A stretch of 64,000 nt of DNA from Anadara kagoshimensis (taxonomy: Eukaryota > Mollusca > Bivalvia > Arcoida > Arcidae), in assembly GCA_021292105.1 (NCBI GenBank), contig JACFYK010000022.1:295501-359500 (forward strand). Direction: 5' to 3'. Shown in pieces: positions 10,441 to 63,040 of this stretch; positions within the stretch are counted from its first letter, which is position 1, and each line of letters begins with the position of its first letter. Made by a program: the position numbers and the translations under genes. The notes beneath the pieces are model-generated. The model was not told where the DNA came from. It did not search any database and saw only the letters and a list, made by a program, of their open reading frames with translations.

Positions 10441-13400
10441 CAGACTGGACAATATGAAATATCCATCGAAACACATATCTAAGGTAACCCTACATACAAA
10501 ATAGTCAACCATGAATAAATCCATAAATATTAAGAAAAATTGAAATAACCTTACATATACCAATAGTGAACCATTAATAAATACATCAATATTAAAACAC
10601 ATTAAAATAAGCTTACATATACAAATAGTGAACTATTAAAAAATACATAAATATTAAAACACATTGAAATAAGCTTACATATACAAATAGTAAACTATTA
10701 ATAAATACATAACTATTAAAACACATTGAAATAACCTTACATACACAAATAGTGAACTATTAATAAATACATAAATATTAAAACACATTGAAATAACCTT
10801 ACATACACAAATAGTGATCCATTAATAAATACATAAATATTAAAACACATTGAAATAACGTTACATACACAAATAGTGAACTATTAATTAATACATAAAT
10901 ATTAAAACGAATTCAAATAACCTTACATATACAAAAAGTGAACTATTAATACATCCATAAATATTAAAACAAATTCAAATAGCCTTACATATACAAATTG
11001 TGAACCATTAATAAACCCATAAATATTAAGGCACATTAATATAATTTTACATATACAAATATTAAATATTAATTCAAACATTAATTTTAAAACACAATAC
11101 AATAACCTAACATACACAAATAGTGAATATTAATAAATCCATAAATATTAAAACAAATTCAAATAACCTTACATATACAAATAGTGAACTATTAATAAAT
11201 ACATAAATATTAAAACAAATTCAAATAGCCTTACATATACAAATAGTGAACTATTAATAAATGCATAAATATTAAAACAAATTCAAATAGCCTTACATTT
11301 ACAAATAGTGAACTATTAATAAATACATAAATATTAAAAGAAATTCAAATAGCCTTACATATACAAATAGTGAACTATTAATAAATGCATAAATATTAAA
11401 ACAAATTCAAATAGCCTTACATATACAAATAGTGAACTATTAATAAATACATAAATATTAAAAGAAATTCAAATAGCCTTACATATACAAATAGTGAACT
11501 ATTAATAAATACATAAATATTAAAACGAATTCAAATAGCCTTACATATACAAATAGTGAACTATTAATAAATACATAAATATTAAAAGAAATTCAAATAG
11601 CCTTACATATACAAATAGTGAACTATTAATAAATACATAAATATTAAAACGAATTCAAATAGCCTTACATATACAAATAGTGAACTATTAATAAATACAG
11701 AAATATTAAAACAAATTCAAATAGCCTTACATTTACAAATAGTGAACTATTAATAAATACATAAATATTAAAACAAATTCAAATAGCCTTGCATATATAA
11801 ACAGTGAATTATTAATAAATACATAAATATTAAAACGAATTCAAATAGCCTTACATATACAAAATAAAAACTATTAATAAATCCATAATTATTAAAACAA
11901 ATTCAAATAGCCTTACATATACAAATAGTGAACTATTAATAAATACATAAATATTAAAACGAATTCAAATAGCCTTACATATACAAATAGTGAACTATTA
12001 ATAAATACATAAATATTAAAACGAATTCAAATAGCCTTACATATACAAATAGTGAACTATTAATAAATACATAAATATTAAAACAAATTCAAAAAGCCTT
12101 ACATATACAAATTGTGAACTATTAATAAATACATAAATATTAAAACGAATTCAAATAGCCTTACATATACAAATTGTGAACCATTATTAAATACATAAAT
12201 ATTAAGGCACATTAATATAGTTTTACATATACAAATATTAAATATTAATTCAAACATTAATTTTAAAACACAATACACTAACCCAACATACACAAATATT
12301 GAACTATTAATAAATACATAAATATTAAAACAAATTCAAAAAGCCTTACATATACAAATAGTGAACTATTAATAAATACATAAATATTAAAACAAATTCA
12401 AAAAGCCTTACATATACAAATTGTAAACTATTAATAAATACATAAATATTAAAACAAATTCAAATAGCCTTACATATACAAATTGTGAACCATTATTAAA
12501 TACATAAATATTAAGGCACATTAATATAGTTTTACATATACAAATATTAAATATTAATTCAAACATTAATTTTAAAACACAATACACTAACCCAACATAC
12601 ACAAATATTGAACTATTAATAAATACATAAATATTAAAACAAATTCAAAAAGCCTTACATATACAAATAGTGAACTATTAATAAATACATAAATATTAAA
12701 ACAAATTCAAATAGCCTTACATATACAAATTGTGAACCATTATTAAATACATAAATATTAAGGCACATTAATATAGTTTTACATATACAAATATTAAATA
12801 TTAATTCAAACATTAATTTTAAAACACAATACACTAACCCAACATACACAAATATTGAACTATTAATAAATACAAATATTAAAACAAATTCAAAAAGCCT
12901 TACATATACAAATAGTGAACTATTAATAAATACAGAAATATTAAAACAAATTCAAATCACTTTACATATTATACAAATAGTGAACTATTAATAAATACAT
13001 AAATATTAAAACGAATTCAAATAGCCTATCATATACAAATTGTAAACTATTAATAAATACATAAATATTAAAACAAATTCAAATAGCCTTACATATACAA
13101 ATTGTGAACCATTAATAAATACATACATATTAAGGCACATTAATATAATTTTGCATATACAAATATATATTAATTCAAACATTAATTTTAAAACACAATA
13201 CAATAACCCAACATACACAAATATTGAATATTAATAAATACATAAATATTAAGACACATTGAAATAACCTTAATATACAAGTTGTAAACCATTAATAAAT
13301 TCATAAATATTAAGATAAATTCAATTATCCTTACATACACAAATATTGAATAATAATAAATACATAAATATTAAAACACATTCAAATAACCGTACATGTA

Positions 13401-13520
13401 CAAACACTCAACCATTAATACATAAATATTAAGACACATTTTAAAATACATAAATATACAAATAATGAACCAATAATAAACCATTAATATTGAAACACAT
13501 CAATATAATTTCACATATAC
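10440..13520. repeat. AT-rich minisatellite, 62-bp unit, ~50 copies, with higher-order repeats
   Basis: The unit contains CTTACATATACAAATAGTGA followed by ACTATTAATAAATACATAAA and TATTAAAACAAATTCAAATA. Consecutive copies are 62 bp apart. A variant block (TTAAGGCACATTAATATA ... AATTCAAACATTAATTTT) interrupts the array near 11030, 12190, 12500, 12750 and 13130. The repeats starting at 12099, 12408 and 12655 show higher-order periods of 309 and 247 bp, that is 5 and 4 units minus one base. Units decay at both edges and are homogeneous in the centre. The 64-residue minus-strand readings are artefacts of the array. Confidence 0.97.
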
Positions 13521-16500
13521 AAATCACTCTGAAAGACAGGTCTGCAATTTCCACAAAATGTGTTTTGGTTTTAAAATTTTGTAACCTTTCACCGTTTAGA
13601 AATTTGAGATATCTTTTTGACAAGTGTCTGAAGACCGAAATTACCCCCTTTTTTAAAATCATCGTAGACCATCATGAAGTTAAATTATGAAACGTATGAA
13701 TTTTATGCCAAAAAAACTACATTTTCAAATTTAATTTTGAATTGAGAGATACGCTACTGAGCATAATTTTTTTGATTTCTGACAATATTGAATACTTGGA
13801 CATATTTTTCGTACAGAAAATTATCACTTGATATTTTGTATGTGATAGTACACTAAAGAGATTGAATTGAATCAAAAATGTGTTTTGTGCATCGGGTGTA
13901 AATATCTTTAAAAACGAGAGACGAGTGTGGTACATTTTCATTTGAATGAAAAAAATATTGCTGCCCCAACGATGATTGATGCGTCAATGTCAAGTTTCAT
14001 TGACGTTGGAACTAGTTCTAATAAAAACCAATGTAATAACGATTTAAAAAATATTTCATACACATAATCAAGTTTTAGTTTATGTTAATTGTATCAATTG
14101 ACAAACTAAACGGATAAGTTACATTTTTCATTGGTCAGTGACAAAGAACGTTTTATTAAAATGAGAGTTGTCTCTCTTTCATTGCATTTCATTTCTAACT
14201 GGAGCACAATGATTGCTATACTAAAAGAATTATTTTGTGATTTTAGGGAAAACATTAAGCACTGAAGATCAACTGAGAACAATCAAATCCTCCTCTTTAT
14301 AGAATAAATACAGTAAAACCTGTCTATAATTTTAAACAGCTAGACCAGGTCAAAGTGACCCGTATATAGACAGGTGACCACTATGAACAAGTTTTCACTG
14401 TTAAAATTTATCTACCATTGTATCATGTTCATGTACATGCATTTCATACGTATGTAGACTAAGAGCTTTTATAAAATATTAAGAATGTACTATTTTAAGG
14501 AAATTTTTAATGGAAATCGTAAACAAGTGATTTTGAATTGATATAAACATTTAATTTTGAGATACTAAATTAGTTTGATTCTTTTAAATTTTAATTTAAA
14601 ATCTTAAATAGACATACCAGCTATATATGTTCAAATTTCATCTAAAACATTATGTGATCCAATGTTAAATAATTATGTTACCTACTGTATATTACGAACA
14701 ATATCACAACAAAATAACATAATTAATACATAGAAACAATAGAACACATTTTTTAAAAAATAAATAAAGAATCCGTTTGTTTTGATAAATAACGTCAAGC
14801 TCAATGATCTGATACGGCATCCTGATGCGTCAATTGTCGCGTCGGGCAATAACAGACGAAATGGACAAGAAAGAAAAATCTAGCACTGTTGATTTTTCTG
14901 TCCGAGATACGAGAATTTGAAATCTTGCCCGTCATACATTCTCTAAAATGGTATTACACAACATAAAAAGCTTTTACATTCATCATGTAAATTGCATTGG
15001 TAAGAGACTCTTTCTGAAATCAACTGTAAACATAACATTTTATCCAGAATGTGAAATGGTTTTAAAAATTTAATATAGATCTTTATACGGTTGAAATAAC
15101 CGATACACCTGCACACACGAATAAAATTATACATCATCCAAAAATATTAAACATTGACATTAAACACATATTTAAAACAACCATGTATATGCATAATATT
15201 TCATAATTAAAATATACCTTCATAAACAAATAATCAAACATCATATATATATATTCTATCAATAAAAATTAAAATAAAGCACAAATATACCGGTGCTTAA
15301 AACTATGATCTTTAAAAATAATTTCTTGCACCAAGGTATATGGCATGGTGCTCCGAACATGAATGCAACCCCTTTTTCGCTAGTTTCAACAGACATATCT
15401 GAAATTACAATTGAGATAAAAACAGACGTGGAAGTCTATTCAGGATGTCCTAGTAAGAATGAAACATAAAATGCTGCTGATTAAGTTTCGATATTTTATT
15501 GCAAAATGTTCACTACATATTGAAACGTGGTACATCACCCAGTTTACCTTTTTAAATTATTGTGAAAAATTAAAACATAATGAAGTTTATAAATATGATG
15601 TCTCTGTATTCAATATTATCTTGAGTGTATTTGACGTTCCATAATTTAATTTTCCTTTCATTCGTAATATTGAATATGGTGGATGTAGCTTGTAAAACAA
15701 AGGTTAGTGATCATTCCAGAGAGTGCGGTCTTACTACATTGATGAAACTTAATTTGAAGTTTATGATTCGGCCATAGATTACAATGTTCGATTTTAATTT
15801 AAATGAAGAAATATCATACTTATCAACAATACTATGTCAATTTTTATAATAATGTTTAGACAACCATAAACTCGATGTCGTTTCGCAAAAATGTATCACG
15901 CTTCAAGAACTAGTTAAAGAACATTGTACAATATCGATCGAAACTTTAAATAATGGTTTTTCTTTTTTTCGAAATATCAAATTATTTGCTTAGATTTTTG
16001 GAGTGAATATTGGAATACAGGCGATCAGTGAAGTTGGGGAATTCGATTAAAGTAATGTTTTAGACATATCCTAATTTATGTTCAAAGATTCACTTCTTTC
16101 TTTGTCTTTTTATATAAACAAACAGGTTGGACCAGAATATTTGGAGGCTCCAACAAACGCTGTTAATAGCTAGGCAATAGTTTTCCAGCTATGGCAAATT
16201 TTGAATATTGTATCAAGAATGTTCATAGAAACTTATAGGTGATAAACGACAAGTTTATTCAAATGTAAATTTAACTCATCAATAATTTTGTTGAAACTCA
16301 TAGTTATCCCCCTTTGTAAAATCTGTCTTTTGGAAAATATTTAAACAATGAGTATTGTCTATTTTATTAGTTCATATTTCAGGAAATTTATTTAATCTAA
16401 ATCGTTTTATATGTTTTACGACTCGCACTTCACTTGAACTAAACTTTAACATTTGATTAATATGTCGTAAAAATAGTCGTTTGAAAAATTAAAATTTACA

Positions 16501-24979: not shown

Positions 24980-27872
24980 GATATGCCTATGGGCCTTAAC
25001 GCTCACCTGAGGAAGAGTACATATCGTATGCAAAGGTTCAATGACCTTAAAAAAAAGAGAATATCAAAATATTCATCAGTAAGGGCCAATTGCAAGCATT
25101 TTTGCAAGTTAATCATTATAATTTTTTTATAAGTATGCTATATATAACATATCTAAAGTCTAGCTAAAATATATTTTTTATAAACAGCTAAAACATCTAT
25201 ATATTAAAATGTGCATTAGGCCAATACCTACAATATTCTAAGATACATACCTACACAAAAAGTTTATAGTTTTTGAGATATTTAACCATTTAAGTATTTG
25301 TTCCTGTCTTTGACCTTGACCTTTGAAACTATGACCTTTATTCATATATCAAAATGATCGTTAGGCCAATATCTACAATATTCCAATATGTCCAATACAT
25401 GCCCATACAAAAAATTTATAGTTTTTTTTAGATAATTAACTATTTCATTATTAGTTAACATCTATGACCTTGACCTTTGAACCTATGACCTTTACTCATA
25501 TATCAAAATGATTGTTGTGCAAATGCCTACAATATTTTAATATACATGCCTATACAAAAAGTTAATAGTTTTTTAGATAAGTATTGGTCCGCATCTATGA
25601 CCTTATCCTTTGAACCTATGACCTTCATCCATATATCAAAATGATGGTTAGGCCAATGCTTACAATATTCAAATAAACATGCTTATACAAATGGTTTATA
25701 GTTTTTTAGATAAAACTATTTGAGTATTTGTTCACATTTACGACCTACCTTTGAACCGATGACCTTCATATATCACATTGATCGTTAGGCAAATACCTAC
25801 AATTTTCTAAAATGCATGTATATACAAAAAGATTATAGTTTTTGAGATAATTAACCATTTAAGTATTGGTTCGTGTCTATGTCCTTGACCTTTAATCTAT
25901 GACCTTCATTTATATATCAAAATGATCGGTAGGCCAATACCTACAATATTCTAATATACATGCCAATACAAAAAGTTTATAGTTTTTTTAGATAAATAAC
26001 CATTTATGTATTCGATTGCATCTATGACCTTGACTTTTGAACCTATGACCTTTATTCATATATCAAAATGATCATTGTGAAAATGCCTACAATATTTTAA
26101 TATATATGCCTATACAAAAAATGTATAGTTTTTTAGATAATGAACCATTTCAGTATTCGTTCAATTCTATGACTTTGACTTTTGAACCTATGACCTTTAT
26201 TCATATATCAAAATGACCGTTATGCCAATACTTACAATAAACCAATATAAACTTTATAGTTTCTGAGATATTTAACCATTTAAGTATTCGTTTGCATCTA
26301 TGACCTTGATTTTTGAACCTATGACCTTTATTCATATATTAAAATGATCGTTGTGCAAATGCCCACAATATTCCAATATACATGCCTATACAAAAAGTTT
26401 ATAGTTTTTGAGATAATTAACCATTTAAATATTTGTTCGTAACTATGACCTTGACCTTTGAACCTATGACCTTCATTCATGTGTCAAAATGATTATTAGG
26501 CCAATGCCTACAATATTCTAATTTACACGCCTATTCTGTAGTCCGATCACATTTTCAGTGATGAAAAAACATGTTTTAAATGGGTGGTGTGATTCAAACT
26601 TAGATATCTCACTTGATTTAATTTTAATATATTTGAAATTTCACAGGTGTTAATGGAACATATTTTTTGATATTTTGAATATTTTTTGCAAATATTCTCG
26701 ACTTTTTCAATGTTTTGCTTTTAATTATGAATACATTTTAATAAACTTTTTTCGCTGAGAAGTAAATACTCATTCGTTTGCAGTCTTGTTTTAAAGATAA
26801 GTATTTAAAAACACTATTTTTCTATCTACATGGTTAAATTATTAATATTCACTGTAATTTTTTAGTTTTTAAGAGTCAAAATTTAGTAATAATTTGAAAG
26901 GTAGCTGTTGTCCCTCTCATATGTTGATATGGCATATTCGACAGTTCCATTCACACAAGTCATTCAACATTGGGTTCTGATTGGCTAATACGTATTCACG
27001 CGATACGGGTTTATACAGGTGTTTCTATTCCTAACCAGTATACGTCACGGTCTATCCCATTGAACTTGTTTATGAATAAACAACAGATAAAACAGCACAC
27101 AGATCAAAATTATGAATAAAATTCATTTATTACACATGTTTGGCCTAGAACGACACAATTTTTAAATTCTATGTTTTAAAACTACAAAACCTTCAAGCTC
27201 ATCTAACAAAGCCGCGACTTTGTCTCAAAAGATGTAGTTATTGGCGATAATGCCTTTTACTACGTGATACGCATTGTCTGAATTCAGGTGCGCGTCTGAT
27301 AAAAACCAGTTTTATTTGATTTTAGACTAAAAATAAGAAATATAATCAAATTATTTAAACACATGTTATAAAAATAACAGATCTACAAATAGCATTAATG
27401 AAATTTGAGGCAAGTAATTCACGATCTTTTTAAGGCCACATCGGTTTTCATCACTGAATAAGTGATCGGACTATAAAAGTTTATAGCTTTAAAGATATAT
27501 TGACATATACCTTAATTTTAGAGATTGTCCCCTTAAGTACCTTGCTATTTCCCTTATTTTAGCCTCAACAGTTACGATTTGTGCAAATCTGAAACTAGGT
27601 GATCTAAGTATGTTTCACATGAAATATCTAAGCTATATCTCTTGTAAGTTCAGAGGAGATGATTTTAAAAGATTTTTACAATTTCCCTCTATATGGGACC
27701 CCAAGGGGAAATAATCCTTTCATTTGTGCAAATCTGTATGGCCTTCACCTAGGCATCATTATCACTAAGTTTCATCAAATTTGGCTTGGTAGTTTTAGAG
27801 GAGATTAAAATGTACTAAGTTAATGCACGACGAACGACACACAACGCACGACGCACGACAGACGACGGACGG
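24980..27872 (+). repeat. Composite mollusc-type repeat, copy 1 (142-bp tandem array plus tail)
   Basis: It opens with GCCTTAACGCTCACCTGAGG. About ten units averaging 142 bp follow at 25160-26535, each with TATGACCTTGACCTTTGAAC, ATATATCAAAATGATCGTTA and ATACAAAAAGTTTATAGTTT. It ends in a GGAGAT-rich tail and ACGCACGACGCACGACAGAC near 27840. The 931-bp TIR element interrupts it between the array and the tail. A second copy in the same orientation lies at 36750-39060. Confidence 0.85.
26541..27471. mobile_element. 931-bp non-autonomous TIR element
   Basis: The left end GTCCGATCACATTTTCAGTG (continuing ATGAAAA) equals the reverse complement of the right end with about two mismatches over 28 bp. 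TA dinucleotides flank both sides. It splits a tandem-repeat unit whose two halves resume at 26538 and 27474, which proves insertion. No coding capacity. Its terminal GTCCGRTC, with flanking TA, is shared with the 4.4-kb element at 29149-33533. Confidence 0.88.
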
Positions 27873-28259: not shown

Positions 28260-28945
28260 TTTTGTCTAGTACATGTACTCATCACGAATCGCTGCTTATG
28301 CAATTCTTGACTTGTGCACAGGAACATTGTCGTGCAGCATTCCAGCAGGTTTATAGTTGATTAACAGAACACCCTAATCCCAAAACACAGTGGCCATGAC
28401 TTTGCCAGCTGATGGTTGGGTTTTGATTTCCTTTGGTGGGGGTGAGCCAGGGTGCTTCTATTGCATGGACTCTTTTTGGGTTTCTAGGTCCCAATGATGA
28501 ATCCATATTTCATCACCAGTTACTAAACGTATATGGAAGCTCTCCGGGTTATCATTATAAATGCAGAGACGCTCCCGACTTGACTGGAATGTTTGGAAGC
28601 CATCCTGCACATTAAGGTTTCTGGGGACCCATCTTGCGGATACTTTTGACATGCCAAGATGATCGTGGATAACCGTGTATATACTTCCATGTGAAATGTC
28701 ACACTCCCTAGCTATGTCATCAATCCTAATTCGACGATCATTCATGATGAAGGTGCCCACAGATGTGACAATTTCATTTGTGATGGCATCAGCTGGCGGA
28801 CCTGAACGTGGGTCATCTTTCAGTGAGTTGCTCCCACGTTTAAATTCAGCTGAATATTGTGCCACTGTGGAATAGGCAGGACCAATGTCACCATACACCT
28901 CGGTATTTGGCCGGAACTTTATTACTGCCCTAAAATCATTAAATT
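28260..28945 (-). pseudogene. Mariner-type transposase, internally deleted
   Basis: The open part (28458-28898) reads YGDIGPAYSTVAQYSAEFKR, then SLKDDPRSGPP, the helix-turn-helix region RRIRIDDIARECDISHGSIY, VSARWVPRNL, and the first catalytic Asp in VTGDEIWIHHWDLETQKESMQ. Downstream, in broken frame, KHPGSPPP, INYKPAGM and LHDNVPVHKSRIA are recognisable, so the second Asp block (HDN) survives. The bases between the KPAGM and LHDN blocks are missing (about 40 codons compared with full mariners), there is an internal loss near the N terminus, and the third acidic residue region was not found. A canonical product is about 345 residues, so this cannot be active. Terminal repeats were not identified. 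It lies in the receptor intron on the same strand as the receptor. Confidence 0.93.
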
Positions 28946-29586
28946 TTCAATCATTCCTTAATGGTCACCAACATTTAATGCTTTTGAGAATTACACAAAT
29001 ATGTTGTGACAAATAAACTTGATATGTTTAAAATGGTGGAATGTTGTGTTGTCTAAATAAGTAAAAAAATATTTGTTACGCCTGACTAAATACGCTGTTC
29101 TATGAACATTCTGACTTCCCCTCGTATTTCAGCATGAAAGTTCCCTACTAGTCCGGTCTGTTAGCAACATAAATATGTACAATTGTGCAAAGTATGATAC
29201 CAACATGAAACTTTCCATGAATACAGTTTGTTATGTCCTTAACAAAATTAGATATAGACCCAATCTCAAAAAGTCTCCGATTTCCGGTATGACGTCATCA
29301 ATATTCCTCCTTTATACAAGAAACTTCTTTAATTGTCATAAATTAAGTGTGGGCAGATGTGGCTTACTTGGCGGTTTACAAATGCATTTTTATAGAAATA
29401 TATATAGATAATTACATTTTCAACACATATGAATAAATATTTTAATTCAATTTTACACAAATTATTCATTTTTGCAAATTTTAATACCATTAAAATACTA
29501 CAAAGTATTATAATTATATTGTTTTGTATAGATAATTTCACCTGGTGATTACACAGAATATCCTTGGCGGTAATACTTAATTCTCA

Positions 29587-29702
29587 AAAAAAAAAAAAAT
29601 AAATAAAAATAAAAAATGAAATAAATAAAAAAATTAATTAGTCAATCAAATAATTAGTTAATTAATTAACAATTTAATAATAATAATAATAATAATAATA
29701 AA
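29587..29702. repeat. A-rich/(TAA)n low-complexity block
   Basis: An A-run with TAAATAAA repeats passes into about nine AAT units at 29676-29700, inside the 4.4-kb element. Confidence 0.85.
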
Positions 29703-30420
29703 CAACTAAAAATATCCACCATTGTCATACGTGGCGCACAACAATTTAAGTGACTCTGATCTCAATATTTACTATATTTGCCATATATTAATTGTTACAA
29801 TTTTTAACCTGTCTAGACCTCGTGTATCTGTATAATAGAAACTAGAGAAAATGTTGTTAATGTCAAGAAGATTTAGCCAAATCTCTTGTTTGTCCTGCCA
29901 ATAGTAAGAGGCATGATAAGGGGCTGGATATAGAACATTGTCACGAGACCTCGAGAAATGTGCAGAAATGGGTCCCCTAGCTAGTACCATAGTTTTTTAA
30001 ACCGTTTTGATGGTGGTAATGGTATAGATGAAATTTATAAATAACTCCGCAAAATTTCAAAAATCATATGGAAATAAATATGATTTTTGAGAGATTAAAA
30101 ATGTTGGACACAAGGAAAGTAGGCATGCGGACAGTTTTGGTCACGCCTTCAAGAAAATATATTTGATTCTTTTGTGAAAAAGATGATGACTTCAACAACC
30201 TTGTATCGGCTCAGACTCTAGGCATAGATGAAAGAGTTTGCTTTCCTGCTTTGAAGCTAGGGGATAAAAAATTCTTGCTTAAAGTGAGGATGATATGATC
30301 GTAATTGACACATAATATTACAAAGTGTTTCTAATGGGTCTCTATAATAGGCTATGGAAAGTACAAGAAAGTTGTTAAAGTGAACAAGACTTCGATAGTC
30401 TTGTGTATGGCATAGCTACT

Positions 30421-32860
30421 ATGGATGTTTGCCATGTTAACTATGCTAGATGGTTAGATACCATTTTTTCTCAAAACACTCAATGAACTTAACATTAGAC
30501 ATCCAGCAGTATTTGAAACGTTCAAGAAAGGGCACTGTGTCACTCAGACAACTGTTCGACCGTTTTCTGCCATGTTAGATGGCCAAGCACATGAACAAAA
30601 TAACAGAAATGTCAAATCAGAAGGAGGAACTATAGGATTACTTAGCAATCCACAAGCCCTGCTACAATGGATGGTTGATGGGTCAGAAATTGGCAAGATT
30701 ATTTCTGAATTTGAAACAGGAGCAGGGATGGATATACCAAATGACGAATACCAACACCATCACGAGGCTTTTGATAAAAGATTCCAAAACCATGTTTTAA
30801 AAGTTGAAGAGGTAATGACTGATGAAGGAATCCTTTTGAACATTAGACATCCAGCAGTATTTGAAACGTTCAAGAAAGGGCACTGTGTCACTCAGACAAC
30901 TGTTCGACCGTTTTCTGCCATGTTAGATGGCCAAGCACATGAACAAAATAACAGAAATGTCAAATCAGAAGGAGGAACTATAGGATTACTTAGCAATCCA
31001 CAAGCCCTGCTACAATGGATGGTTGATGGGTCAGAAATTGGCAAGATTATTTCTGAATTTGAAACAGGAGCAGGGATGGATATACCAAATGACGAATACC
31101 AACACCATCACGAGGCTTTTGATAAAAGATTCCAAAACCATGTTTTAAAAGTTGAAGAGGTAATGACTGATGAAGGAATCCTTTTGAAGAAGGTTCTCTC
31201 TGCTATCAGTTGCTTGTTAAAGAATTGTAGATGAAAAAGCATGTGATTCCGTAAAAACAGCCACAAAACTCGGGCAAAAACAGTTTTTGTCATATTATAG
31301 AAACCGAACAGTTGGAGGGAAACATCTATCCATGATCCATTAAAAGAAACAATATCCAATTTTTCAGAAAAAAAACTACCTTAGGAATGAGCAAAGGAAA
31401 TGCAAAAATGTTTCCATTGAGAAAAGACTGCCAAGTTTTTTCTCATCTCTTAATTGCTTGCCAAACCAGACAAGGTGGTCTTAGCGATTTTTTCAGTCAC
31501 GAAAATCATCCATATCCACCATTTATATCTGAATATGAACAAATAAGAAAAAGGAATAAATCAGCTGTTTGATTTGTCTATAAAACTATGGTAAAACTGA
31601 ATTTACTACTCCAGCGGCATCTGTTGTTATTATTGACGGGCCAGCAATTGTTCTCATGACAAAGCCTAAAACCATGTGAAGTTTCAAAAACTATAGCAAG
31701 AATGTCTTTCAGTGGCCTTATGTCCCACCAGGGACGAAGAGGATAGGTAGGTCTTTCAGTCCCTTATTTTGACTTATGTGAGAAATGCTGATAGAGTGGA
31801 TATCATTTTTGATCTGTAACTTGACCATAGTCTTAAATCTGAGACAAAGGAACGACGTGGGACAGGAAGAAATTAAAGTGTCACCAACAACAATAATACC
31901 AAAAGACTAGAATGCATTTCTGAAGTTTAACAGAACCAAGGAAAACTTTTTAAGTTGGTAGCAGAAGATTTAGTAAAGATAGATATTGAAAACAATGATA
32001 ATTGTATGCACATATCTTGATAAAGTTATTTCATTAAACGCTTGGCACTTCAGCTTCATCACCTTGTGGACACAGGAAGGCTGACACGAGGCTATTATTA
32101 CATTCCAAGGATGCAGCAAGTATTTGGCATGATAAAATTCTCATAAGATCAGTCGACTCTGATGTAGTTGCAATAGCACTGTATGCATTCCATTCGTTAA
32201 ATGTAACAGAACTATGGATCGAAATTAGTACGGAAAACACAGGCGGCATTTGCTAATACATCAGTCCTGTCATACACTAACTGCTCTTCAGTTTTATTCC
32301 GGCATGCATTTACTAGATGTGAGACCGTGTCTTCATTTGTTGGACGTGGTAAGAAAACAGCATGGGGTGTGTGGGAAGTTGTTCCTGAACTAACATTTCT
32401 GTTCATGACTTTGTGTAGCTGTCCGCATAAAATATCTAATCAATTATTTACCTTGTTGGAAAACACATTGTCTTGTTGTACGGTAGAACAAGTTCATCTG
32501 ATTTGTAAATGAATGTTGCTAAACGTAAGTCAAAAATGAATCGTGCAATCGAAAACATACCACCAACAAAAGCAGCTCTTTTGCAACATTCGAAGTAAGC
32601 CATTTTGCAAACAGGTTTTATCTGGAGTCAGTGTCTTGTGAGAATGCCAGAAATACCAGATTTATGCTGCTGGAGTTAAAATAAAGGCGATGAAAGGTTT
32701 GTTCCCTCGTGGACAGATCTAGCTGAAGCTTCTCGTCACTGCTAAGAACTTATACACTGTTATTGCAAAGTAAGATGTGCAAAAAGATGTAAATGCATCA
32801 AATCTTCTTTAAAGTGCATACATTTGCGTGACTGTGGCCCTCAAGAGGATGATATTTAGT
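30421..32860 (+). pseudogene. Large transposon-borne protein of a widespread unnamed invertebrate family, broken
   Basis: In order along the plus strand are NYARWL (near 30437), HPAVFETFKKGH and RPFSAMLDGQAHEQNNRNVK (30500-30620), ALLQWMVDGSEIGKIISEFE (30658-30715), then IACQTRQGGLSDFFSHENH PYPP (31460-31520). Further on come SVDSDVVAIAL and SLNVTELWIE (32150-32220), SFVGRGKKTAWGVW (32330-32372), PPTKAALLQHSK (32560-32596) and a Cys-rich end with ELIHCYCKVRCAKRCKCIKS (32740-32810). I recognise this order from very common multi-copy genes of cnidarians and molluscs. They are usually annotated as uncharacterised; I cannot give a catalytic function. The copy has several stops and frameshifts and an exact internal duplication. 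Its position between terminal inverted repeats argues that the family is mobile-element cargo or its transposase. Confidence 0.75.
30493..31188 (+). repeat. Exact 348-bp tandem duplication (two units)
   Basis: 30493-30840 and 30841-31188 appear identical by eye, each starting CATTAGACATCCAGCAG and ending CCTTTTGAA. The length is 116 codons, so the reading frame stays open through both copies (30572-31234). Confidence 0.95.
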
Positions 32861-34310
32861 ATGGGATTAGCCATGTGGAACATAATCTTTAGTTGCTAAA
32901 AGTACTGGTTTGTCTAGTTATCTGTTTTACCTGCTTAGATGCTTACATATTCTAACTATATGTTCTTTTATTCATACTTGTGATATTTGATAACTATAAT
33001 AGGCAAAATCATTCCAAAAACTATGTCTTTGTCAGGGACAGAATTGTTTTATTACAACAATTTGATTAGAATCTCGCGCATGCGCATTTATTTAAGTCAA
33101 TATTTTTAATGGTTATGAACATCATTTTGTACTATTAAACTTTGTCAAAGAAGTCTGCATTTTCTATCGAAATACGATAGTCGTAAACAATTATTAACTT
33201 TGCGGCAGCCATTTTGAATTATGACGTCATACTAAAGTATAGGAAGTACCTAGATACAACCAGTTTAAAATTTTGTTAAAAATAACTTTGTTTAACAATC
33301 CTGAAAACACTCTATAAAGCGGAAAAACATTCTATATCCACTGAAATGTGATATTTTCAACTGTGTTTCCTTTCGACGGCAGCCATTTTGAAAAATGACG
33401 TCATACGGAGAAATATGGTGCGAGCAAGTTGGGTCTATATCTAATTGTGATTGCAATAGTGCCAACTAATATTCCTGTAAGTTTCATGCTGGTATCACAT
33501 TTTGCACAATCTATGTGCTAACAGACCGGACTATACAGCTCATCTTTTAGTTTTTACATAACATTATTACAATTAATGTAGGCGTTAGTTGACAGGTATC
33601 TTTATCTTAATTAAAACACCTTTTTAGCTTGGAATTTGGTAAAAAGTGCTCGTGATCTTTGACCTTCGTGTTGCTATTGCCAGTCTATTTTTTTAATTTC
33701 ATAAGTAATGTTTTAGGACTTAATAGTCAAGAATAAGAATCACTTGGGCTTTATCGTACTCATGATTACAAGAATTAACATATTTGTTACGAAAAAAAAT
33801 TTCTACTTAAAATCGTGATTTTTCTTGACTTTTGACCCTCTAGATCACGAGACCTATTAGCTATTTTTAGTAACGGCTATAATTTAAAATCTTTTCGGTC
33901 ATATATGCTCAATACTGGTATACACAACGTAACACTGCATAATTATGTAATTTGCATGTATTAGACTGGCACTGAAATCCCATGTTAACCTTGCGTATTT
34001 TTGTCCAGAACGGGAAAGGGTTGAAGAATGACCATAGACTATATAACATCACATTGTGTCATCAAAGTTTAGAAGATTTTCCCAACAAATTCCTAAACAA
34101 ATTATCAACTTCCATCATTTTAAAAACTGTCGGAGAACATACTATGCAATATGATATTTACAAAACCATTAATAAATTATTACGGGTTTTTATTCAAAAT
34201 TAAAGATGTTCTGAAATAAATGCCGAGCATAACGTGCCAAAAATATCCATTAAAACCTTTATAATCTCTATACGACTTATAATTTAATAAAATAACTTGA
34301 GCTCACTTAC

Positions 34311-36006
34311 CAAGTATACCAATAGGCAACCAACAAAAACAATCCGTAATGACTACCATAAGGAGCATCGTCGCGGCATCTCGGTCTCTAGATGTAAGAG
34401 TACTTCTTACACGTCTTGATGACATCTGGATTTCTCTGAAGATGACAAGCTGTCCAATAGCAATCACTAAGAATACTACAAAGTTAAATCCAAGGAAAAC
34501 AACAACACTGTAAAGTTTTCCTTCAACGTAACCGACAGTCAATGGTAATGCTATACAAACTCCTGAATACGAGTAGAACGTGTGATACAGTTGACCCGGG
34601 ATAATAGCTGATGCAGAAGCAATGGCCCATGCAAAAAGTGACATCAAATGTGCCTGTTTTGTCGTGATTCTGGGGCCTCCGATTGGATACTTCACAGCAA
34701 GAACCCTGTCTACTGTAATAAACAATATAAAGAGGACAGAAGACTCACTCGAAACAAAAGAAATTGTTCCAGACAGTTCACACAGCAAGTTGTTTTTCCA
34801 GTCATATTCACGCCAAGCATACTGTCCTTTGAACTTTGCGTCATGAGCAGCAATTATCAGCATGTAAAACCCCATCAATGCATCAGATACACTGAGATTG
34901 GTTACAAACGTAATAAATGTTTCATTTGTTGTTTTTGCTCCTCCCGTAAATCGATACACTACAACAAATATATTGCCTAATGCTGCCATTATCCCGATTA
35001 TCCAGAGAAAAATTCTTAAAACACCATCTTCAATCAAGTCATTGCAACCCGAGACAGCATCTTTTGGAGCATGACAGTTCCCCGTAGTTATTAGTTTCGG
35101 CTTCATACAACAGACACTGTATGAGTCTGTGTAAATAAGATTTAATTTTCTGTTTTCTTGGAAGTAGTTATTCCTAATACGCAAATCATTCCCCTTTAAG
35201 TCTATGGACTTTAAAGATGTAAGATGGTTGAATGTATCACCGTTAAATTCAGTTAGAGCGTTATTACTTAAATCAAGGTGTTCTAAGGAGGCAAGGTCAG
35301 ACATTGCTTTACTGGAAATCTTTGTCAAAGCTTTGTTATCAGTAATAGTTAGATTGATTAATTTCCAGAGTCCTCTAAATGCATTGTCTTCAATATTTCT
35401 CAGTGTCGTGTCTGCAACTACTAGATCTGTAAGCGTACTGAATTTAATGAAAGACTCCAATTCCAATGACGACAAATGTGTACCATTTAGATTTAAGTAT
35501 TTTGTAAAGTTAACCTGTCTAAAAACACTTGTTTTCCCATTGAACTGTCGTAAAATATGGGACTCTCTCAAATCATTTATGTAAAATTTTCGCCCTTCTC
35601 CATTCTTATCTATGTAATCACCTACTACATGGCAGATTGAAAAAGCAATTGATTCGTTTTTAACCACTTTGGAAAACGGATGGGTTTCCCAATCAAAGAC
35701 ATCCTTATATAGATCAATCAGATACTGTTTATGAGGAACCCTCCTTAGACAATTGATGTGAATACCACTGATACCACAATTACTGGCCTTGTGGCAACAA
35801 TAAAACTCATCAAATCCACCATAACAGTCTATATTTTGGTCGCATATCATTTCAGCTTTCAATTGCTTGCAGCTACCATCTACACACAGACAATGAGTCA
35901 CATTATTTGGGCAAATCTCTGAAAAATTAAACCGTGGATGAGAAATATTATCCAATAATTTAAGCTCAAACAAAACATAATTCGCAGTTAACGACCTAAA
36001 AAGCAT
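34311..36006 (-). CDS. LDLa/LRR G-protein coupled receptor (GRL101/relaxin-receptor-like), main exon
   Basis: This is a plasma-membrane receptor of the LGR family. Numbering from the ATG at 36006, residues 39-71 form one LDLa module (CLCVDGSCKQLK ... CDQNIDCYGGFDEFYC). About five leucine-rich repeats cover 165-290 (LEHLDLSNNALTEF is typical), and hinge cysteines lie at 299, 300, 311 and 321. Helices are TM1 330-352, TM2 363-387, TM3 410-436 with the DRV motif (433-435), TM4 452-470, TM5 494-524 and TM6 543-565. The exon ends mid-codon at a GTAAGT donor; TM7 is in 23756-23958. There are fewer LRRs than in vertebrate RXFP1/2. The ATG may not be the true start: the frame is open upstream to 36034, just after a TTTTCAAG acceptor, and no signal peptide is encoded, so an upstream exon is likely. 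Glycosylation sequons (NFS, NVT) sit near the LDLa. The ligand is unknown; insulin/relaxin-like peptides are the ligands of related receptors. Confidence 0.92.
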
Positions 36007-36034
36007 CCAAAGTTTGCTGATGTATTTGTATTTT

Positions 36035-36400
36035 CTTGAAAATTAACTGAATGAATTAACGCCATTAATGATGTTTAAAAACGATACTTTGTCGATTCAA
36101 TTATGAAACATTTAAATGCCACTGAAATATAAACATTAAAACAACCATTTATAAACACCCGTATTGGAAAGAGAAATATCAGGATAAATATGAATCTTTC
36201 AAAAGAGACTACATTGCGATATCTTGACTGGAATTGACCAATATTGTGGCTATCTAATATACAGAATTATCATCAATACCAGAGACGCCGTAGTTAAAAT
36301 TGCAACATAATACAAGGTTGGATGTTTCTTCTCTATACATACAATCGTGATATAGGAAAAATATACCGAACATGTGGCGAAAAAACAGGGTCAACCTATT
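36035..36400. other. Sequence upstream of the receptor exon
   Basis: It is probably intron or 5' flank of the receptor gene; no signal-peptide exon could be recognised. Confidence 0.4.
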
Positions 36401-36749: not shown

Positions 36750-39060
36750 GTTAGAGCCAATATTTAAGGTATTTTTTGCAAATTATAATTCGCCCAAAGA
36801 GTACTCTATCTAAAACATTTAAGGTCTAGCTGTAATATATTTATAAACAGCTAAAATAGTAGCGACAAACGTAAAACTTTAAAACACTATGACATTTCAG
36901 TATTTGATTTAAACTGTGGACTTGCTTTACTCTTTAAAGCCATGACCTTCATTCAATATCAAAATTCTCTTTATTCCAATGCCTACAATATTCTAATATA
37001 CATGTCCTTACAAAAAAAATAATGTTAGAGATAATTAACCATTTCAGTATCCGTTTGCATCAGTGATCTGAAACTTTTTACTTATGACCTTCATTCACAT
37101 ATCAAAATGACCATTACACCAATACCAACAATCTTCTAATACAAATGCCTATACAAAAGTTTATAGTTTTTCAGATAACTAATCAATTTAGTATTCGTTT
37201 TGTGTCTGTGATCTTGATTTTGGAACCCATGATCTTAATTTGCATATCCAAATAATCGTTAGACCAATGCCTATAACATTCCAGTATACAAGCTCGTACA
37301 AAAATTTAAAGTTTTTTTGATCATTACAATTTCAGTGTTCATTTGCACCTTATGACCTGCATTAATATATCAAAATTATTTTTGAGTCAATATCTACAAT
37401 ATTATAATATTCCTGCCCCTACAAAAAGTTTATAGTTTTGGCGATAATTAACCATTTCAGTATCCGTTTGCATCTGTAATTTAGATCTTTGAATCCATGA
37501 CCTTGAATCATATATAAAAATGACCATTTATCAATACCAACAATATTCTTACATAAATACGTTTACAAAATGTGTATAGTTTGTGAGACAATAAACCTTT
37601 TTCAGTAATATTTTGCATTTGTAACTTTGGCCTTTGGACCCATGACCTTTAAACATATATCAGAATGACCATTACTTCAATACCAGCAATATTCTAATAT
37701 TCTATAGAAAATATTACTAGTTTTAAAAAAATTAACTAGTTGAGTATATGTTTGCATCTATGACCTTGACCTTTGAACCCACGACCTTCATTCATATATT
37801 CAAATGACCATGACATCAATACCAAGATTCTAACATACATTGTTGTTTTTGTCAGAAAAACATTAAAAACATAATAAAACATTAAAACGTCTTGTTATGA
37901 ATGTACATGGAAACATCATAATTATTACACTTTTATCTTCATTCAAATAACTACTAACACTATTAGTTCTTTTCTAATGTACAAGAGAGCCACCATTTGG
38001 GTGACTTTCCCCGAGATTGACCCCTGCTCAAACACGATTTCTTGTTTCAATCATCCATTCCTATGGCAACAATTACATCCAATCCATATGTACTTACACA
38101 ATATGTGAATGACATCTATCCTTGTGAATTGAAAAAGAAGATACAATGATTCCTCAAGTTCTACTTTGTATACCCTAATTACGACACCCAAAAGAAGGGC
38201 TACGTTTGAAACTTTATGGCAAACATGACGACTTTAATTTTTATATTGTCAACATTCTGTTTCTATGCAGCAATATATTGCTCCTCCTGCTTAAAGTGTA
38301 TTTGTGTCCCAATGCATACGCTTGGTAGTGCGTGTACCTATTACAGGGAATTTGTACAACGAAGCAGGCTGCTTGCAAATTAGTTGTTGACATGGAGATA
38401 TTGCAAGCCTAGTCTAAACAGGGCAGACCCTAAAAGTTTTATGGCCGTCACCACAGTATCATCGATAAGTTTGATTGTCTGTATCCAGGTTTGCCATTGA
38501 CATATTTGACGTCCAATATTTTCCTTTGCACAATTTTGATTACACACGTTGTGGGTGTAGGTAGCTATACAGGAGGTGCTTACCTTCCGTAGCAACCGGC
38601 AAAACTTCTCTGGTGAAATCGAAGTCTAACCTAATTTGTTAGTTTCTAAGTTTTTACTTTACTTCTGAATTGCGATTCGGACATAGATGAGTATTTTCTT
38701 TTTTATCTAGTACATGCATTGTCCCTGGTTTTGACCTCTATAGCTACATTTTGTAGAAATCTGAAAACTAAGTGCCCTAAGTACGTTTTACATGAAATAT
38801 CTAAGCAATGTCCCATGTATCTTCAGAGAAGATGATATTCACAATTACCTCTTTATGGAACTCCAAGGGTACAAAACCCCTTTATTTGTGCAAATCTGAA
38901 AGTTTTTTACCTAGATATCATTATTGCTAAATAAAATCAAGTATTGGCCAGTAGTTTTGGAGGAGATTATTCCAATGTGAAAAGCCTGTACAAGACGGAT
39001 GACAAAACACTGACTACGCATGACGAAGTAACATAGATGGCAATTCACACTCGAATCTAG
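36750..39060 (+). repeat. Composite mollusc-type repeat, copy 2
   Basis: It has the same order as 24980-27872: a lead-in (AAGGTCTAGCTGTAATATAT), about seven diverged units of about 140 bp at 36900-37860 (CCATGACCTT ... ATATATCAAAATGACCATTA), then the tail with ACATGAAATATCTAAGC near 38790 and TGACGAAGTAACATAG near 39030. It is more degraded than copy 1 and is interrupted at 38390-38600 by a family C repeat. Confidence 0.8.
38390..38600 (-). repeat. Dispersed repeat, family C, inverted copy
   Basis: The minus strand reads GGTAAGCACCTCCTGTATAG, GTAATCAAAATTGTG, GACGTCAAATATGTCAATGG and GATACTGTGGTGACGGCC, aligning with 17450-17640. The 71-residue ORF in it is incidental. Confidence 0.8.
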
Positions 39061-41030: not shown

Positions 41031-43609
41031 TTAACATGAATGTTTTATTATTGTTATTTTCATCAAAACTTTTTGGGACAGCGGTCCATCTCATTGCACA
41101 ACATGTACAGTTTCCTCATCAGTTATGCCCAAGCTAGATTTTTTATGAGTGCAGTCATTGTAGTTGAAGTCAGTTCTAGTCAGCACCTAAAGTCAAACTG
41201 TCCTAGCTCGATCAGCTGTTCATATCCACGTCACATATAAACTAACACAGGATTTCATTTTGTCAATATTTACATTCAATTCGGAATAAATGTCAATAAA
41301 TTTTATCTGTATTTTCATAAAAATGATTATTGCGACGATGTGTTAATTAATTCTTTCGAAAAACGCATTTTATTATTTTTCTTAAAAATCGATCGTTTGT
41401 GAAAACGTTTTCCCGTCCTGACGAACGCCATTTTTGTTTACACTGCATTCAGCGAGGGTCACATATGCACTCAAAATTTCCATTCAATTAAGTATTAATA
41501 TGAGAAAAAGAGTTACCGTAAAAGTCATGTACTGTGGTTATGCTAACCTCGTAATAGTTTTGTGTCAGGTAACTATGGTTATCAATTTATCTAACTTGAA
41601 ACCGGCAAATTTTGTATCTTCCCGCATTGTATACTGTGTGCTCATGGTTGATGCGCATGGGAATGCCGATCGCTGATTGGTTATCGATCTGAATTGAACT
41701 TTGACCCCATGAAAAGAAATCACGTCATCGTGAATCTTGAAACGCTACACTTGAAGATCAGCCAGGATGGCAAAAGAAACGTAAATATTTGGTATTTGAT
41801 CAACCTATTTAAGTTATTACTTGTTTCAATGAATTATTTTCACGATAATCGTTTTTTGGTTTCATTTTTGATGTACGAGACGGGCGAGATTTCCCCCCAT
41901 ATGGAGCTCACTTCCTGTCGATTTGACCGCTTCAATGACCTTGAGAAAAGTGGTGCACGCGCGGCGTCAAATAATTTGGACGTATGGTCTATGTAATTTT
42001 TCTACAATTTTCTATGACGTCATAATACATACGTGTTACCTATAGACGGGACATTTCCCGTATTAGTAATTTGACTTATATAACACAAAAGCTCTGTAAA
42101 TAATTTTTCTTGTAAAATAGCCTCCATTATCCAAGATGGCCGCCAATAATATGTATAATTACATCAAAAGTTAACAAAGCCTTTATTATAAAATGATATT
42201 TTTAAATAGAAATATTTTTAAAAAACTATTTACAAAGAGGACATAAAACATAAAATTAAATGTTTTCAAATGTGTGTCGTGTACAAATTAAAAAAGTGGC
42301 CGATATAGCACTACCAGAGCGCACCGATATCATGACTGCTGTGAAACTCAGCATGGGGTACAGTGTCGGGTAAATTTATTTAATAAATATAATTAGTGTC
42401 CCAAATAATGTCTAATTTGCCCCTTTTATAGGCCTAAATTGACAGATTGTGCTAGCGCCGGAGAGCCGAGCCAAGGATGGTTGGGCTTTAACCATTTGGA
42501 AGGTGTATAGATCGCAGAGTACTTTAAACGACATTGGATGAACGATCAGGCTCTGTGTAGGGAAAAATTTTACTTGATCCTAGTTGTATCCCATACAATA
42601 AACGACGTGCTTATAACGGTGAAAAAGGACGAAGGATATTCATTCCATCAGTCCTCCTTATTACAATGGATGAAACCGATCAATTAAGTTTAAACCTAAT
42701 TAGACAAATAAGTAGACAAGAGATAAAATCAATACCAGTGTCATAAAAATCAGAACATGATGGCTATAAAACTTTGGCTACTAATACATAACGATTTTAT
42801 AAACTTAATGCAATATCAATTATTCTTGATCAATCAAGGTTAGACGTGACCTTAAAGTTATCGGTAGACCGATTACATTTTAACATTATGACATTACATG
42901 ACATTATAACTTGTTGATACACCATGAATGTTCCCTGTAATATAATTCATATTTAAGAGTTAAGGTTTTGTGAAATACATATAGAAAAAGAAAAGAACAA
43001 TTATGAATTGGCTTTTCCATGCAGATATAAAAAATCTGAAGATGTTAACTTAACTTAAGGACCTTTTTCTCATGACGAAAGCATATATTATATGTTTTTT
43101 CAGAAATGTATTATCGAATTAAAAGAATAGCCACATGCTTTCGTGAGTGAAATAAAATAACAGTAAGATAAGATTCAAAATAAGTTATGACGTAATACCA
43201 TTGTTACATGGCTTAAAAACATTACCTCCAGCATCATGAAACGTCTTTAAGGTTCCGACTGCCATAGCCTGTATTTTCTTTTGCGATGTCACAAGTGTTT
43301 TCACGGAATAGTTTGATTTGTCGTTTTTCCAGCGCTTTTTTATTATGTTTTTATTTGAATACTTTTTGGCTTCAATCCAATATAAAGCGTTCCCTGCAGA
43401 AAGAGATAATCAAGTGTGTAAGAATAACACAGTTAAATTTTGTTATTTATTATATTCATGCCCCTACAAGAATTTTATACTTAAGAAAGCTAACGTTTTG
43501 TTTCGATTTTTTGCTTATAAAACAAAACATTAAGACGTCAAATGGCCTTAACGCATACATTAGTTTACGCTATATCTAATGGAGGAATTAAATTACTGGG
43601 ACCGTTAAA
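41031..43609. other. Long stretch without a supported gene
   Basis: ORFs such as 41434-41676 and 43286-43579 show no recognisable domain. No repeat was matched within the window. Confidence 0.45.
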
Positions 43610-59199: not shown

Positions 59200-62100
59200 A
59201 TTTATCTGCCTTATTCATGACAGTCGGCCTTTCGTCAATTCCTTTGTGGTACCACTTTATCTTTGTGATTGCGTCATATTGTGAAGTGTTCCATTGTTTT
59301 TTCTACTTATTTTACATAAACTCGCTCTGTTATAGTGGCTTATTTTATTTTTATTTTGTTATTGGTATATCTTGATTGTCTCTGGGTATCAGTATTTTGC
59401 TGGTATTTTTATTTGTGGTGTTTTGTTTATTATTACTTATTTTACATAATCACTGCTATGGTACAGTGGCGTATCAAGTTGCATTATGTACTGATCGCCG
59501 CTAGGTACCCGCTTTTGTTGTGGTGTTTTATGTATTTTCATTTATTTGTTGTTACATAAACGCTACTATGGTACAGAGCGTATCACATTGCATTTATTAT
59601 TATGTATTGATTAGCTCTGGGCGGGTATTTTTAGTTTGTTTGCGGTGTTTATGTCTTTTGTTTATCACCACTATGGTACAGGGCACATCAGTTATATCAT
59701 TTTCGCCACTGGTTTCTTGCTTTTGCAAGCTTTTATTTTTAGCGTTTTTATGTATTTATTTATCTTTCAATGGACACTTTTGGTTCTTAGCAGTCACCAT
59801 ACGTGGTGCCACATGAGGATTGCCTCTGTCTGATATTGTCATTATGCTACTTTCTTTTTTTTTGTTGTTGTTGAATTGGGTAATTTTTTCTATCCATTCA
59901 TAACAATTTAAAACACTTATATATAGTGTTTATTTATACGTTGTCATTATCTCTCACTTTAATGTCTTGGATTGTAATCTGTACTTCTGGTCTTACTATA
60001 ATAATGACCTTATACTTATCCCTCATTCTGTTTGTTCCTATGTTGTTTTTGTGGTCTGTTTCTTCTTCTTTCTGACTTTCAGAGATTAAAATGCCTAGAA
60101 CCGTTCGACCGAAGCGAACGGCAGCTACAAGTGATCCAGTCGGTTTCCGCCATGAAGCCTGTTCCGCAAAGACCAATGCCTACGCTCCTGATTCTTCCAG
60201 GACAGTTCAACACGATAAACAAGGACACCATGTGCTAACTATGCCTTCTGCGGAAGAGATTGAGGCTACTTTGCTGTGGATGCAGTCAACTGGCAACCAT
60301 ACACAGTTACGGGCGATGCCAATATATACCACAACAACAAACCATATTTCGATTACATCTGCCATTAAAGCTTGTATCTACACCCGAATGTGCGTCTATT
60401 CCACTTAGCAACTACCTGATCACCTGTTATGTATTTCGACAGGCTTCACGTCGCCTAATTTTGTGTCCGCTCATCCAGCTGGGAGTGCAAGTAACATTAA
60501 CATTTAGCTTAGTTAGTTTTATTAAGAGGTCTTAGCCGCTGGCGTATCATGATTAATATGTTGTCTTTGCTGCCTTGTTGCCACAATCACAACCCAATGA
60601 AACAATTTAAACATAAAATCTATTAATAATATAAAATGCAGCAGTGGACTGACACATTTCACATATATTTATTTGTCATATATGTCAATTTATATTACTA
60701 AATAAATAAATTTCCGATTTTAATGCTCGATTTTATTAAAGATGGTAGTACCATGCATAAATTTGGTTATGAGTTTGGCTTCAAGGCGGTGAATTTTTAT
60801 GATATTTAGAAAGCTAAGAGTTTATCATAAATTGAATTGGCACCTTGTACACGACGAGTTGTATCGTCTAGCCATTAGTTCTAAAGCTTCTGTTAACGTT
60901 CCTTTCAATAATGTCAAAAATACAAGGCTTTCCTTTTGCGGTGGAATCCACAAAAAACTAACTAGATACCCCAGAGGTTTTTTGTTGTGAGTACTGCGAC
61001 ATTGGGGCTTACGCGAATCTCTTTTGGAAACTTAGACACTTAGGTCGTTTTCGGGTAATACATGACTTATCATTTCCTAGGGGCAATTCCGTCAATTCTT
61101 CTATTCCTGTAGAGCAGATCTGTGTATCCTACTAGAATATAGAAACTGGCATAAGCTTAGTTTAAAATATGGGATATAATGCATTAATGGCCAAGGCGGA
61201 CATTAAGGATGCGTTTCGCCTATTGCCTATTTGTCCACAGGAACATCTTTTGTTAAGTTTTATATGTGATGGACAATATTACTATGACAATTGTCTGCCT
61301 ATTGGTTGCTCTTCTCATTGCCAATTATTTGAACGGTTTTCATCGGCCCTTCAATGGATTCTATCTCATTGTTTCGGATTTGCGGCCGTTTCTCATTTAT
61401 TAGTTGACTTTTTCTTTGTTGTCAAAGAAACTTTCAAAGAGTGTGATTTTGATCTTAATTCATTTTTAAAGCTCTGTAAAACATTGGTGTTCTTATCAAA
61501 CGTTACCTACCGAGGTTTTGACTATTTATTGATTCCACTGTCATGTTGGCCAGATTACCTCATGACACAATTGTAAAAATTTCACAATGTTTAGAATTTT
61601 TTCAAACGTAAACGTAGTAACAGCCTGTGGGATTTGCAGTCATTAATTGGTTTGCTGAATTTTGCTTGTAGTGTAATCACACCCGGGAGGGCTTTTCTGC
61701 GAAGACTTATTGACCTCACAATAGGTCACACTTGTGCTTATTTTGCATCTGAATGCTGTATCTGGAGCTGACTTACTTGCTTGGTATCTATTTATTCAGC
61801 ACTTCCATTGTTTTTTATTTCATCCCTGGATTACTACCGATACTTTAAGATTTTCAGATGCTGCTTGAATCCATTGGGTTTTTGCGGTGGTGTTCAGTTG
61901 TCACTGGTTCACTGGTTGTTTGCCAGCTAAATGGAATCTCTCCACATTACAGTAAAAGAGCTTTTCCTATTGTACTGGCTGTTGAAAGAATTTGCTTACT
62001 TATCAAAAATTTTCTTTTTCACTGATAATTCTGCAGTAATGGAAATTATCAAGAACACAATAGATCGCGTAATTATGCGACTTTTCAGGCGCTAGTTTTG

Positions 62101-63040
62101 GCATCTTTGCGTTATAATACTTTTTTCGCGCAAAACATATCCCAGGCAATCATAATGTTGTTTGTTATCTCCTGTCTCAATTCTCTTTTCAGAAAGTTCA
62201 TCATATTTTTACAATTGTTTAATGCATCTTTATCTGATGCTACTCACAAATCTTACACTAGAATGATTAATTGTTACATACAATTTTGTCATATTTATTA
62301 CCTGAATTGTAGTCCATTTCCATCTACTCATGTTCTCTTCTCTTATTTTATCGCTCGTTTGTTTTTACAAAAGTTAAGTCCATCAACTATTGCGTCACTT
62401 ATTTCAGCCTTAAGTTTTATTCTCATATCTCATAATATGATTGACCCTACCGATACGTTTGTCATCAAAGAGATAGTAAAATGTATTCAAAATGTAACTA
62501 AAAAGAGTGTTAGACTCCCTATTGCTAAAGATATTTTGACCACATTGCTTGATTCTGTTGCTTACGTTATCGTTAATAGTGACAACCAGGTACTTCTGCA
62601 AGCTATGCATGCCTTGTCCTTTTATGCTTTTTACAAGTAGGACAACGAGCTCTTCTAACCCCGCTAAGGTACTCCAAACACGTGACATATCATTCGATTT
62701 CGTTACTTGTTTTTAAAAGGTATGTCTTTGGTGATTACTATCTACAATCTCAGTGATCTCCACCCAAACTATCTATATTTCGCATAGTACCAGTAATACT
62801 ACTTGTCCAGTTGCTGTTATGTTTACTTATTTGTCAGTTTGGTCATAGAACTGGACCTTTGTTTCAATTTAAATCTGGCATCCTAGTTTCTTGTTCTTAT
62901 TTCACTATGTCACTTATTTTTGGTTTAGACTCACAGCATTACTAGACACATAGTTTTTTCGAATTGGGGCAGCCTCTTCTGCTGCCGGTAGGAGAGTTCC
63001 TCTCAGTTATTTAGAACATGGGCAGAGATTTCTCCCCACC
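59200..63040 (+). mobile_element. DIRS-like (tyrosine-recombinase) retroelement fossil
   Basis: Parts occur in the canonical order on the plus strand: a 5' tandem-repeat leader (59225-59800), a gag-like start (60091-60408), a gag end/linker region (60799-60990), reverse transcriptase (61169-61576, KADIKDAFRLLPI block), an RNase H region (about 61750-62060), and a tyrosine recombinase beginning at 62098-62640 with a recognisable C-terminal box near 62940-63000. The absence of a DDE integrase and the presence of a recombinase distinguish DIRS/Ngaro-type elements from ordinary LTR elements. It is broken, with several breaks, and terminal repeats were not resolved, so both ends are approximate. 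The decay suggests an old insertion. Confidence 0.85.
59225..59800 (+). repeat. ~118-bp tandem repeat in the retroelement leader
   Basis: About four diverged units contain TTACATAA.CGCTACTATGG, TACAG.GCGTATCA and GTATTGATCGCTCTGGG. They lie just upstream of the gag-like region. Confidence 0.75.

Follow-up and report, generated by a model that had tools for sequence, protein, structure and literature searches.

What kind of mobile element lies at positions 29149-33533 of a 64,000-nucleotide stretch of the Anadara kagoshimensis genome (contig JACFYK010000022.1, positions 295,501 to 359,500; hereafter the window, to which all coordinates refer), and what does it say about the protein family that it carries? 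The gene remnant between its inverted ends belongs to a family that we take to be abundant in cnidarians and molluscs and left without a name, as the first-pass annotation of the window also held. That annotation proposed the gene as the transposase or core gene of a DNA transposon group that it could not name. The ends, flanks and gene remains described here point to a name: we think it rather likely that the element is a decayed, probably 5'-truncated DNA transposon of the Academ superfamily, from its nuclease-encoding lineage (AcademX). The assignment is made because of a possible 3-bp target-site duplication (TSD), the size of the element and FEN1/XPG-type motifs in the downstream half of the gene.

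For AcademX, a passage of PMC10045372 gives TSDs of 3 or 4 bp and credits this nuclease-encoding lineage to Kojima 2020; for AcademH the same source gives 9 or 10 bp, and the difference in TSD length is seemingly tied to the encoded nuclease or helicase. In PMC10294476, 100 curated Academ elements of bivalves have a mean length of 5565 bp, Academ ranks behind TcMar and hAT within the DDE/D groups recorded, and it is described as almost restricted to bivalves among the molluscs studied. A repeat table in PMC8905726 gives 2833 and 3377 for Academ-1, which seem to be copy numbers, and a paper on an aplacophoran mollusc (PMC10810820) contains the word Academ.

Results

The element measures 4385 bp and has inverted repeats at both ends. 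Its coordinates in the first-pass annotation were exact; the perfect terminus is 18 bp long, not 16 bp (29149-29166 and 33516-33533), the left end opening with TAGTCCGGTCTGTTAGCA and the right end being the exact reverse complement. The imperfect inverted repeat, earlier put at about 150 bp, aligns 150 bp on the left (29149-29298, plus strand) with 139 bp on the right (33395-33533, minus strand) at a local alignment score of 92, whereas the scores of 300 simply shuffled end pairs averaged 22 and reached 37 at most. These are terminal inverted repeats (TIRs) of the kind that defines a TIR (class II) DNA transposon, and a blastn comparison of the element with the window recovered the identical end pairing (E 9e-13). 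The palindrome TGACGTCA closes both inverted arms, and a 30-bp motif around it has a second copy in the right end, 174 bp further inward (33203-33232 and 33377-33406, both on the plus strand and 93% identical), a possible transposase-binding site. The CRE-like TGACGTCA occurs seven times in the window, three of them within the element ends (29290, 33222 and 33396), and these palindromes are possibly binding sites of the transposase or of a host factor. Neither blastn nor end comparison revealed a second copy of the element within the 64-kb window, where the other matches to the ends are short: TAGTCCGG at 40937, not extended by terminal blastn, and 14 bp at 42013-42026.

The borders of the element read CCCTAC/TAGTCCGG...CCGGACTA/TACAGC, with TAC on each side (29146-29148 and 33534-33536). 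Earlier annotated as a TAC or TA repeat, the flanks do fit both, either a 3-bp TAC duplication with TAG...CTA ends or a 2-bp TA duplication with GTCC...GGAC ends. Agreement between the two flanks is limited to 3 bp, and of the 8513 pairs of sites that lie 4385 bp apart in the window, 186 (2.2%) match over 3 bp, so that the TAC duplication taken alone is weak, suggestive evidence. Set beside the 3 or 4 bp of AcademX, the 3-bp reading would fit, in a single copy with 2-bp TA as the alternative.

Ends of this kind could in principle come from a different element, with the gene present by secondary insertion. The neighbourhood is rich in repeats, and short imperfect inverted pairs inside the element span the gene: 29849-29874 with 32800-32825 (26 nt, 73%, the right arm lying in the last part of the gene) and 29988-30009 with 33004-33025 (22 nt, 77%). 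However, such pairs are short and imperfect and have similar counterparts elsewhere in the region; the 25 longest of the 38 inverted pairs include nothing on a par with the outer ends. We regard a nested structure as very improbable.

Between the ends are the remains of a single gene (30421-32856, plus strand), in which NYARWL, QAHEQNN, FFSHENHPYPP, nuclease-like motifs, GRGKKTAW, PPTKAALLQH and a Cys-rich tail follow each other. The five protein motifs and the Cys-rich stretch that had drawn attention to this gene are all there, distributed over two forward frames out of three. The Cys-rich C-terminal segment (32701-32856, plus strand) was read directly, has no Pfam match and may form a zinc- or DNA-binding knuckle. 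The remnant makes up 56% of the element and has a GC content of 37% versus 29% and 30% in the flanking spacers (1120 bp and 270 bp); no other gene was recognised inside the element. Because real termini enclose one gene remnant with no other recognised, the simplest reading, and a probable one, is that this gene is the core of a TIR DNA transposon, as originally proposed.

The gene is visibly broken, as had been noted. We followed it in a read-through of 657 positions, drawn from all three frames by picking segments by eye, guided by what relatives of the protein look like, and this hand-chosen reading changes frame 11 times and meets 5 in-frame stops, which makes the copy very unlikely to be autonomous. 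A 348-bp in-frame tandem duplication lies in the QAHEQNN region (30491-30838 and 30839-31186, both plus strand). Since its two copies are 100% identical in a heavily mutated gene, the duplication either arose after much of the decay or is an assembly error. DUF5675 (PF18925) matched the duplicated open reading frame (ORF) with 28 bits (cut-off 26.7) and fell to 13.7 bits (E 0.058) when one copy was used; the match was most likely produced by the duplication itself. The gene seems to have lost its front part, and the copy is probably 5'-truncated, because Pfam has nothing credible for the four frames scanned ahead of NYARWL and intact members of the family are presumably longer than the remnant here. 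Leader_Erm (E 0.012, under the cut-off), from the same upstream scan, was dropped as chance.

A broken gene with its front seemingly missing is also what would be expected if a non-autonomous TIR element had captured a gene fragment as cargo and were moved by a different transposase. The unequal spacers and the share of the element that the remnant fills fit this too, and the association of gene and ends is a single observation from the one copy examined. Yet this is the only gene recognised between the ends, the contrast between AT-rich spacers and gene is expected for an element's own gene, and the four upstream frames contain no credible Pfam match. We consider captured cargo distinctly unlikely.

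In the downstream half of the gene, after FFSHENHPYPP, the read-through shows VVIIDG, DIIFD, LDHSLK...RRG, RKAD, RSVDSD, HAFTRCE and GRGKK, in that order. The AcademX nuclease is of XPG type, and the motifs, all on the plus strand, can be set against those of FEN1/XPG nucleases. VVIIDG (31623-31640) is a candidate first acidic motif, a motif reading unconfirmed by any profile, and DIIFD (31799-31813), followed by one residue, a stop and LDHSLK...RRG, is a candidate second acidic motif comparable to VFDG..P.LK of FEN1. RKAD (32074-32085) stands at the place of the FEN1 ExEA motif with H and K at the two glutamate positions, RSVDSD (32146-32163) is a candidate DxD motif, and HAFTRCE (32303-32323) stands at the G-T-D-Y place with E as the acid. 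Intact relatives carry HEEADTR and FTGCDT at the ExEA and G-T-D-Y places.

For comparison we used 31 FEN1 sequences from 31 loci (L062-L092), taken as archaeal because their source is a Woesearchaeota archaeon genome and genomes of its phylum. Their consensus gives avDaf, VFDGkpPelK, APsEgEA, SQDyDsL and GTDY, the same order as in the read-through. For D, D, the ExEA site, DxD and C-E, the spacings amount to 49, 80, 26, 2 and 55 residues in the read-through and to 59, 87, 26, 2 and 53 codons on the DNA, where the read-through passes over some 30 bases at each of two places. The FEN1 spacings are 53-70, 72, 19, 2 and 60-61, counted in the 11 of 31 archaeal sequences that matched and leaving out the 20 that failed one or more motif expressions.

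Several results weigh against a nuclease of this type and against the assignment to Academ. The nuclease reading is a motif argument made post hoc, on a read-through that is not an independent reconstruction. Some spacings lie outside the FEN1 values (26 versus 19, 80-87 versus 72 and 53-55 versus 60-61), and three of the seven acidic positions differ from FEN1, the ExEA site having H and K and the last D being replaced by E. A profile of the 31 FEN1 sequences gave the nuclease part of the read-through -3.2 bits, with 2.1 for the best shuffled copy, and did not report the full read-through; hhalign against FEN1 returned 0.5% over 16 columns, none of them the motifs. Pfam contained no XPG, PIN or DDE match to the gene remains, PDB sequence searches with two pieces, and with the nuclease part joined together, found no match at E up to 10, and two single-sequence AlphaFold models (131 and 123 residues) were unusable at pLDDT 34 and 36. 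The link from the protein family to Academ is itself drawn from general background on the family together with TSD length, size and domain type, and the inverted pairs that span the gene count on the same side.

Pfam yielded no DDE match in the four upstream frames and no helicase in any scan, the latter being weak evidence in a broken copy, and PHROGs and NCBIfam searches with four single pieces of the gene gave no credible match. Twelve sub-cut-off Pfam rows of a 258-aa ORF (best Cas_Csm6_CARF, E 0.0026), DUF7086 (Pfam, E 0.039) and phrog_10529 (PHROGs, E 0.061) were dropped as chance. Relatives were sought among viruses, prokaryotes and phages, so animal relatives are not expected among the matches. 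An IMG/VR protein scan with the 116-aa unit left two stretches that fit a pattern, neither of them confirmed, and the duplicated ORF had no match among phages. A QAHEQNN codon pattern matched nine times in IMG/VR and 45 times in GTDB genomes, which were searched with this one exact pattern only, and a HAFTGCD codon pattern matched seven times in IMG/VR. None of these 61 loci proved to be a relative in a tblastn with eight window pieces, two of which (D and T) were in the wrong frame and uninformative; the best E was 0.18, and 0.062 in a smaller database of the first nine loci and the window. The literature search found no paper with the six motif strings of the gene, none with DUF5675 together with transposon or HAFTGCD together with uncharacterized, and, as whole words among the matches listed, none with both Academ and XPG.

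Around the element, a 579-aa open frame (34303-36042, minus strand, stop to stop) lies about 0.8 kb to the right and combines leucine-rich repeats with a rhodopsin-type seven-transmembrane (7TM) region (Pfam 7tm_1, E 8.9e-25); it resembles relaxin/glycoprotein-hormone receptors. To the left, a 162-aa open frame (28458-28946, minus strand) resembles the N-terminal part of a mariner-type transposase and has no Pfam match at E 0.01. Further away, a frame at 62029-62640 (plus strand) matches a phage-integrase SAM-like domain (E 1.4e-5, 25.9 bits, cut-off 27) and is preceded by one at 61166-61576 (plus strand) that is reverse transcriptase-like by eye and has no Pfam match; together they are possibly a DIRS-like retroelement. 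Satellite-like tandem arrays lie at 10485-13524 (spacing of about 62 bp), 25199-26534 (about 145 bp) and 36893-37840, the last being 70-76% similar to the second.

Discussion

The element at 29149-33533 shares with AcademX a several-kb TIR structure, a possible 3-bp duplication and a single large gene that resembles XPG/FEN1 in its downstream half, and Academ occurs in bivalve molluscs. Its length fits a shortened Academ copy, given the bivalve mean of 5565 bp; it differs from AcademX in falling below that mean, in being broken and in lacking a recognisable DDE core. AcademH would belong to the same superfamily if the assignment holds, but its helicase and its 9-10 bp duplications are both absent from what we see in the element. 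With FEN1/XPG nucleases the gene shares the order and rough spacing of acidic motifs, while it goes undetected by profile and has several of these positions altered.

The possible TSD of 3 bp, the size and the FEN1/XPG-type motifs point to a known superfamily rather than to the nameless group of the first-pass annotation, with no profile confirming the link. The caution that a broken copy cannot reveal whether the protein has a DDE-type core was well placed, as Pfam gives no DDE match and the front of the gene is seemingly missing. The protein could instead be the transposase of another or undescribed TIR superfamily unrelated to Academ. No profile or structure ties it to Academ or to any DDE family, and the 2-bp TA duplication would suit such an element too; the element nevertheless agrees with published descriptions of AcademX in its size, in a possible TSD of 3 bp and in what looks like a nuclease half, and we judge an unrelated superfamily unlikely.

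Pairing a transposase with a nuclease has a parallel elsewhere. According to a passage of PMC9587614, KolobokE and KolobokD are DNA transposons with a DDD/E transposase and an accessory nuclease, and KolobokD is reported in molluscs. The combination resembles the one proposed for this element, whereas the Kolobok nucleases are lambda-exonuclease-like or of DnaQ type. Kolobok duplications are TTAA, which is not seen at the flanks here.

As an Academ element, an intact copy would encode one long protein. Within it, a DDE-type catalytic part would bind both the inverted ends and the subterminal repeats, excise the element and insert it elsewhere at a cut staggered by 3 bp, which would account for the TAC duplication. 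The XPG/FEN1-like downstream nuclease and the Cys-rich tail might process the cut strands or branched or flap DNA and aid DNA binding. What the sequence itself displays is the termini, the flanks, a single broken gene and the order of motifs in a hand-chosen read-through; we infer the DDE chemistry from the superfamily, and the nuclease activity, the loss of the front and the superfamily name are likewise proposals. It is conceivable, and to our minds highly unlikely, that a FEN1/PIN-fold nuclease is the sole enzyme, no DDE domain ever having been present, so that a structure-specific nuclease mobilises a cut-and-paste TIR transposon.

The copy at 29149-33533 itself looks dead and ordinary, and Academ is a superfamily that already has its name; what the element offers is a proposal, open to testing, of what an unnamed invertebrate protein may be. 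If the Academ assignment is right, this protein family would consist of Academ-type transposases that incorporate a half resembling a flap nuclease. Recognising it as such would help to clean gene sets and would open a way to study why transposons come to carry a nuclease of this kind.

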